NCBI GenBank assembly: GCA_913056365.1
Contig: CAJXLT010000005.1
Location: forward strand, 62,001 to 126,000
Reading direction: 5' to 3'
Length of the DNA stretch: 64,000 nucleotides
Source: an uncultured Paenibacillaceae bacterium
Lineage (GTDB): Bacteria > Bacillota > Bacilli > Paenibacillales > K13
Below the pieces are notes generated by a model. It was not told the origin of the DNA. It worked only from the letters and a program-made list of their open reading frames with translations, and searched no databases. Shown here in pieces: positions 22,027 through 30,842 of this stretch. The translations under genes and the position numbers were made by a program. Numbering within the stretch: the stretch's first letter is position 1; the number at the start of each line of letters is the position of its first letter.

Positions 22027-22146
22027 AAAAAAGAGCACGGCACGCACGACGAACATGCGCTGTCCTTGCTCTTGCCCAGGCGACCGGCCGATACCTCCCG
22101 ATGCTCCACCGTGGTTGATTCCACACGTCGCCAGTTACATCGGGAG
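22027..22146 (-). ncRNA. ZTP (pfl) riboswitch with terminator, upstream of rpiB-ywlG-glyA
   Basis: Read on the minus strand. Helix P1 is a perfect 8-bp pair, CTCCCGAT (22146-22139) with ATCGGGAG (22102-22095). P1 is followed by GTAACTGGCG, a GTGG/CCAC hairpin and GGTGGAGC. The 3' domain holds CGCCTGGGCA (22082-22073). These match the conserved blocks of the ZTP/ZMP riboswitch as I recall it. The 3' motif runs straight into a terminator stem (AAGAGCA / TGCTCTT plus six Ts, 22074-22027). Family knowledge suggests that ligand binding prevents termination. Confidence is high for class; ligand response is inferred. Confidence 0.9.
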
Positions 22147-22163
22147 TCGATTCAATTGCTATT

Positions 22164-27471: not shown

Positions 27472-28572
27472 TTACACATTAAATCGGAAGTGCATAACGT
27501 CTCCGTCCTGCACAACATACTCCTTGCCCTCCAAGCGAAGCAAGCCCTTCTCCTTAGCTCCTGCCATCGAACCGTTCGTAACCAAATCATCGTAGCTGAC
27601 AACCTCAGCGCGGATAAAGCCGCGCTCGAAATCCGTATGGATGACAGCAGCTGCCTGAGGCGCCTTCGTTCCCCGGCGAATCGTCCACGCACGCACTTCC
27701 TGCACACCCGCGGTGAAATAAGTATCCAATCCAAGCAGCACATACGCAGCGCGAATCAACCGATTCAAGCCGGATTCTTGAAGCCCAAGCTCTTCAAGGA
27801 ACATCTCCTTATCCTCGCCCTCAAGCTCTGCAATTTCTGCCTCGACCCTTGCACTGATCACAACCACTTCATTGTTCTCAGCTGCAGCGTATTCCTTCAC
27901 CTTCGCTACATGAGGATTGCCCTCTGCATTGGCAGCTTCTGCTTCACTTACGTTCGCCGCATACAGTACCGGCTTCATCGTCAACAGATGAAGATCACGC
28001 AGCACAAGCTTCTCCTCCACTGTAAGATCAATGCTGCGCGCAGGTTTGTCATCGTATAAGACATCCTTCACCTTCTCGAGACATTCCACTTCCGCTGCAT
28101 ATTGCTTGTTGCCGCCCTTCATATTTTTACGCGAGCGTTCAATCTTTTTTTCCACGGATTCAATGTCCGCTAAGATTAACTCCAGATTGATTGTCTCGAT
28201 ATCACGAATCGGATCAACAGAGCCGGATACATGTGTGATGTCGCCATCTTCAAAGCACCGCACGACATGTACAATGGCATCAACTTCACGGATATGGGCC
28301 AAGAACTTGTTGCCCAGCCCTTCACCTTTACTTGCCCCTTTCACTAACCCCGCAATATCCACAAATTCAAATGCCGTAGGCACAATTTTATTCGGATTCA
28401 CAATGCCAGCCAGTTTAACCAACCTCTCGTCTGGCACTTCCACGACACCGACATTCGGGTCGATCGTGCAGAACGGATAGTTCGCTGACTCTGCCCCTGC
28501 TTGAGTAATTGCATTAAACAAAGTGGATTTACCTACATTCGGCAAACCGACGATCCCTGCCTTCAAAGCCAT
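27472..28572 (-). CDS. ychF: Redox-regulated ribosome-binding ATPase YchF
   Basis: Obg-related P-loop protein that prefers ATP. The 366-residue protein has Walker [10 protein letters not shown] (9-17), [19 protein letters not shown] with the switch region, a helical insertion and a C-terminal TGS-like domain ending in [16 protein letters not shown]. It is the first gene of the minus-strand block ychF-prfA-prmC. It has a good promoter and a cluster of DnaA-box-like sites upstream. Confidence 0.97.
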
Positions 28573-28638: not shown

Positions 28639-28694
28639 TGCACCGTGCATTGTTGCGCATTCGTCCGCTCTTTCTTACACTGTATATGAACAAG

Positions 28695-28780
28695 TTATCA
28701 CCAAATCAGCCGGCAGTTATCACCAGTTTGTTCACAGAAAAACGGATATATCCACAATGTTATCCACAGCCTGTGTACAA
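28695..28780 (+). promoter_or_regulatory. Cluster of six DnaA-box-like nonamers between ychF and tadA
   Basis: Plus-strand nonamers: TTATCACCA (28695), TTATCACCA (28717), TTGTTCACA (28728), ATATCCACA (28748) and TTATCCACA (28760, perfect consensus). A minus-strand TTGTACACA covers 28780-28772. Start-to-start spacings are 22, 11, 20, 12 and 12 bp, close to whole helical turns. No dnaA or dnaN gene is in view, so this is not annotated as the origin. Confidence 0.65.
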
Positions 28781-28828
28781 ATCGAATGCCTGTTCGGCGA
28801 ACATATGTAGTGATGGAGGAATGCCAAC

Positions 28829-29278
28829 ATGGATGACGAGAAGTGGATGCAGGCTGCTATCGATGAAGCCAAGCTTGCTGAACAAAAAGGAGAAGTGCCT
28901 ATTGGTGCGGTAATTGTCAAGAATGGCACCATCATCGGTCGCGGGCACAATTTGCGTGAGAGCTCCATGGACCCAACTACACACGCGGAGATGCTCGCCA
29001 TACGTGATGCAAGCAAGCACCTTGCCGCATGGAGGCTATTGGACAGTACACTATATGTCACCTTAGAACCTTGTCCAATGTGCGCCGGCGCCATATTGCT
29101 GTCGCGAATCCATCGTGTCGTATTCGGCGCATTCGATCCAAAGGCAGGATGTGCAGGGACTCTCATGAATCTACTGCAGGACGAGCGCTTCAACCATACC
29201 TGTGAGCTTACAGCAGGTGTATTGGGTGAGAGTTGCGGTTCCATGCTTTCTACATTCTTCCGCCGTCTTCGGCAATAA
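28829..29278 (+). CDS. tadA: tRNA-specific adenosine deaminase
   Basis: Converts A34 of the arginine tRNA (ACG anticodon) to inosine. The 149-residue protein has the zinc/catalytic site His52-Ala-Glu54 and PCPMC (Cys82, Cys85), and the tRNA-recognition segment AFDPKAGCAGTLMNLLQ. ATG 28829 follows GGAGG at 8 nt. It is divergent from ychF, with the DnaA-box-like cluster between them. Confidence 0.95.
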   Translation: MDDEKWMQAAIDEAKLAEQKGEVPIGAVIVKNGTIIGRGHNLRESSMDPTTHAEMLAIRDASKHLAAWRLLDSTLYVTLEPCPMCAGAILLSRIHRVVFGAFDPKAGCAGTLMNLLQDERFNHTCELTAGVLGESCGSMLSTFFRRLRQ

Positions 29279-30683: not shown

Positions 30684-30842
30684 ATGAATCACACTCTCCT
30701 TCTCTGCGTGCCAAGAAGATTGCAGTCATCGCCAAGTTGTAGCACATATGTACTTCCTCGTTGCTCACGCTTTATTCTTAAACTCATTATATCGAACATA
30801 CGTTCTTATTTCAACTGTTTTTTTATTTATTTTGGTGCAGGT

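Follow-up and report, generated by a model that had tools for sequence, protein, structure and literature searches.

In a bacterium related to Paenibacillus, the leader of tadA carries a conserved row of predicted DnaA sites directly followed by an SOS site, which suggests that decoding capacity might be tied to the state of the chromosome. We analysed this arrangement in a window of 64,000 nucleotides from this uncultured member of the Paenibacillaceae. The tadA gene (28829..29278, plus strand) is an ORF matching Pfam MafB19-deam / dCMP_cyt_deam_1 and encodes the tRNA-specific adenosine deaminase, an enzyme essential in E. coli. Judging by the DNA itself, the element upstream of tadA is quite probably a control region of the tadA leader, with predicted binding of both DnaA and LexA.

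The cluster had been proposed by a sequence-only reading as six nonamers within 28695-28780. All six are present (starting at 28695, 28717, 28728, 28748, 28760 and 28772), and the spacings of 22, 11, 20, 12 and 12 bp are correct. The description of the sites as one perfect and five near-consensus boxes stands for four of them, which fit TTWTNCACA with at most one mismatch. These are TTGTTCACA (28728..28736, plus strand), which is kept in the sister genome, and three core boxes supported by both the consensus match and conservation: ATATCCACA (28748..28756, plus strand), the perfect TTATCCACA (28760..28768, plus strand) and an inverted box at 28772..28780, which reads TGTGTACAA on the plus strand and TTGTACACA on the minus strand. 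The core can be written as box-3bp-box-3bp-inverted box, that is, two direct boxes and an inverted one at 12-bp steps. The other two nonamers, copies of TTATCACCA on the plus strand (28695..28703 and, 22 bp further on, 28717..28725), are doubtful and were over-counted. Since their positions 6 and 7, which belong to the CACA half, do not match the consensus, calling them near-consensus is generous. Both copies are identical in the sister genome and were not seen in other families, and TTATCACCA may be either a weak DnaA box or a site for another protein. The direct repeat GTTATCACC within 28695-28725 (22 bp apart) is likewise found in the sister genome and not in other families; it is possibly the site of another protein. 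The pair GTTATCACC-N13-GTTATCACC did not recur in 1.21 Mb of the same genome.

The window contains 81 DnaA-box matches with at most one mismatch against a mean of 74 in shuffled sequences, so single boxes carry no meaning and it is their clustering that is unusual. With four boxes in 53 bp, the element scores 8 for density, far above any other place in the window (the next best scores 4), in agreement with the earlier claim that it is far denser than chance. When we ranked clusters across 1.28 of the 4.65 Mb of the bacterium's own genome, only the region upstream of sda scored higher (11), and the clusters around dnaA itself scored 7, 6 and 5. The sole other close copy of the core triplet in this scanned quarter of the genome is found in the dnaA promoter (TTGTTCACA-AAG-ATATCCACA-CGC-TGTGAATAA). 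In other words, the leader holds several boxes in ~100 bp beyond chance, as DnaA-box clusters outside oriC do, and the triplet in the dnaA promoter indicates that they are of the kind used at the bacterium's own oriC.

Directly after the last DnaA box we found a LexA-type SOS box, CGAATGCCTGTTCG (28783..28796, plus strand), which was absent from the sequence-only reading. It is the window's only exact match to CGAAYNNNNGTTCG and has the form of a recA box. In the same genome, recA has the box CGAATGTATGTTCG ~55 bp before the RecA match, and two such boxes lie upstream of lexA; the site in the tadA leader thus shares its form with those of two genes of its own SOS system. It is also kept in relatives, as would be expected of a member of the LexA regulon: 36 of the 45 loci with the core have a GAA[C/T]RnnYGTTC box beginning 0-4 bp behind it. 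Among ~85,000 named genomes, a strict motif combining the DnaA and LexA sites occurs in 61 stretches. By record title these belong to Paenibacillus or its close relatives, apart from a single MAG whose name says no more than Bacilli. In 60 of these the motif is located 37-137 bp upstream of tadA on the same strand, and in the remaining one it is too close to the end of the locus for tadA to be judged. Family f8 has tadA with the DnaA triplet and without the SOS box, and sda with the SOS box and without the DnaA cluster. Such separate loss of the two kinds of sites is as expected if they serve two proteins. Many relatives (L007, L008, L011, L015 and L016 among them) have an extra perfect TTATCCACA a few bases past the SOS box, which is absent in the window.

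Conservation in a sister species, on which the sequence-only reading had made its interpretation depend, is clear. In G001, the only other genome found in the same genus, all six sites are identical (54 of 54 bases), compared with 17 of the 32 bases in the spacers (Fisher p = 2.6e-8), and similarity drops outside the element. Within the order, 45 of 49 tadA loci taken without motif selection have the core triplet, called at no more than three mismatches in total, before the gene; the exceptions are G003, G004, G007 and G009. By family, the triplet occurs in at least one genome of nine of the twelve sampled, and it is missing from the single genome that represents each of the other three (f3, f4 and f9). 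None of 41 Bacilli outside the order has the triplet at tadA, the best triplets there having 8-12 mismatches. Taken together, these counts make the element an order-level feature of tadA. We also considered a broader presence in Bacillota and rejected it: a 398-genome sample of the phylum gave two exact matches, both in incomplete genomes of one genus, with tadA at neither locus and a LysM-type ORF at one of them (L044). Conservation of boxes at a single gene start is what is expected of a DnaA-regulated promoter. Since four genomes of the order are without the triplet and family f8 is without the SOS box, the control, if real, is not indispensable.

The cluster was originally placed between ychF and tadA. 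The position is right, but the two genes are not equal neighbours, tadA being the only constant partner. The divergent ychF (27472..28572, minus strand; Pfam YchF-GTPase_C) adjoins the element in many genomes but not in every one, and the element tracks tadA, so we rejected ychF as the target. We likewise rejected the idea that tadA heads a dnaX-recR operon under DnaA control, as the downstream genes vary (a MarR regulator here and others in L153).

The nearest counterpart within the same genome is sda. The strongest cluster in the scanned part (C8:77660-77974, equivalent to L279:17660-17974) precedes a 47-aa ORF identified as Sda by Pfam (4.3e-14), and the SOS box CGAACGCTTGTTCT comes directly after the cluster. 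Most relatives show the same order, DnaA cluster and then SOS box, at their best sda genes. The sda gene of B. subtilis has DnaA as its activator and LexA as its repressor (PMC11925247), and its upstream region also consists of a DnaA-box cluster and then a LexA box before one gene. Consequently, tadA has the layout of a gene whose control by both proteins is known. The two differ in that the target is a tRNA deaminase and not a sporulation checkpoint, in that the DnaA core of tadA is a triplet with 12-bp steps, and in that the tadA promoter is predicted upstream of the boxes and not after them.

The predicted sigma-A promoter of tadA (28653..28681, plus strand) consists of TTGCGC (28653-28658), a 17-bp spacer and TACACT (28676-28681). 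It is a weak match that was read from the sequence and not listed by a simple promoter scan; an almost identically placed TTGCCA-18-TACACT occurs in the sister genome. Relatives point to the same location: of 84 that were aligned, 34 have TTG-N19..21-TAYAAT upstream of the core (0.8 in shuffled sequences), and none has it within the core or between the core and tadA. Many of the 84 were motif-selected, which should not bias the upstream stretch. If this promoter is right, transcription starts just before the DnaA and LexA sites, and the simplest outcome would be repression. Repression of the next gene is known for several DnaA targets of B. subtilis (PMC4447404). Given binding, we therefore lean toward repression as the sign of control. 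DnaA would occupy the phased row of boxes, with its core of two direct boxes and an inverted one, LexA would occupy the SOS box directly after them, and the DnaA oligomer and LexA would block RNA polymerase, keeping tadA repressed. Expression of tadA would then rise when DnaA occupancy drops and also when LexA is cut during DNA damage.

Alternatively, DnaA might activate tadA as it does sda, the real promoter being located downstream of the boxes. The order of parts is indeed that of sda, and the bacterium's own sda has a promoter-like TTGTTC-17-TAAGAT that comes after the DnaA boxes and overlaps the SOS box, which fits activation there. However, the distribution of the promoter motif in relatives, upstream of the tadA core in 34 of 84 and after it in none, makes activation of tadA rather unlikely.

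A second alternative is that the cluster mainly holds DnaA off oriC, with tadA a mere neighbour, as in the case of the DnaA-box clusters of B. subtilis, which initiates early when its six extra clusters are missing (review PMC5295017). The distance between dnaA and tadA might be taken to favour this, as it is ~26-105 kb in 24 relatives, mostly complete genomes of the order in which one contig holds both dnaA and tadA (or its element). In the bacterium studied here, however, dnaA is on another contig (C13) with a GC-skew switch beside it, and the contig of the window, C5, has negative skew throughout, so oriC should lie beyond the right end of C5. At least 168 kb would thus separate its own tadA from oriC, and the gene would run against the fork. 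Titration would not need a fixed distance to one gene, yet the element keeps its place before the tadA start whatever the neighbours and includes an SOS box, and both features speak for gene control. We consider titration as the main role improbable, although nearness to oriC could add such a role to the tadA element. The initial proposal of a DnaA cluster outside the origin that either titrates DnaA or regulates genes is accordingly supported by conservation as to the cluster, and because the element stays with the tadA start, gene regulation is favoured and pure titration less so. A second origin at the cluster was rejected, as dnaA and the GC-skew switch, which mark oriC, are on C13 and not at the tadA cluster. 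Complete genomes of the order, such as L153, have tadA and dnaA on opposite strands, with tadA on the dnaN side and 26-105 kb away; in all genomes so placed, tadA is transcribed against the replication fork.

The conserved stretch might also work as RNA, in the form of a structured cis-regulatory leader of tadA, since with a correctly predicted upstream promoter it would probably be part of the transcript. This is very improbable: the leader folds no better than shuffles (z -0.64) and has no Rfam match, and what is conserved is a set of DnaA boxes, in both orientations, of a kind that occurs also at oriC. A chance cluster of DnaA-box-like nonamers, to which the ordinary frequency of single boxes in the window might point, has a negligible probability given the order-wide conservation at one gene start.

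With control by DnaA and LexA as the preferred reading, tadA may be set beside systems already described. A promoter under both proteins is of a known kind, sda being one example. The genes ywlC, gcp and trmE are tRNA-modification genes. In B. subtilis, DnaA-box clusters outside oriC are located at ywlC, gcp/ydiF, trmE, ywcI/vpr, yydA and sda (PMC4447404). They resemble the tadA element as dense DnaA boxes in intergenic DNA, but none is at tadA in the main text of that paper, in line with the restriction of the triplet to the order in our sample. In E. coli, uvrB and recN are co-regulated by DnaA and LexA (PMC8203912), which matches our proposal of two proteins on one promoter; these are, however, repair genes in another phylum with a different site layout. 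The E. coli datA locus is another DnaA-box cluster outside the origin, but it is ~1 kb long, needs IHF and promotes DnaA-ATP hydrolysis (PMC5295017), whereas the tadA element spans 86 bp in a gene leader. Our literature search, which had little coverage of subscription papers, found no earlier report of DnaA or LexA control of tadA and nothing relevant on Paenibacillus with DnaA boxes. As far as we can tell, what is new is tadA as the target and the near order-wide fixation.

The broader proposal, that DnaA and LexA make the supply of TadA in Paenibacillales follow replication initiation and DNA damage, is a tentative one, and we know of no reason for TadA to follow either, which counts against the control reading. 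If it were true, decoding of CGN arginine codons by wobble, or A-to-I editing of other nucleic acids, would track the state of the chromosome. Chromosome state would then feed directly into decoding, and TadA might be an adenosine deaminase inducible by the SOS response. The genes controlled by DnaA vary greatly among bacteria and few are known, and an order-wide element with both DnaA and LexA sites at a tRNA-editing gene offers a clean test case for a link from replication status to translation. The tadA and sda genes of family f8, each having lost one of the two site types, provide natural variants. Elsewhere in the window, a second LexA-like box, CGAACATACGTTCT (30793-30806), is situated ~100 bp before a minus-strand ORF that carries an IS1595-type transposase zinc ribbon, and a ZMP/ZTP riboswitch (Rfam RF01750) is found at 22067-22148 on the minus strand.
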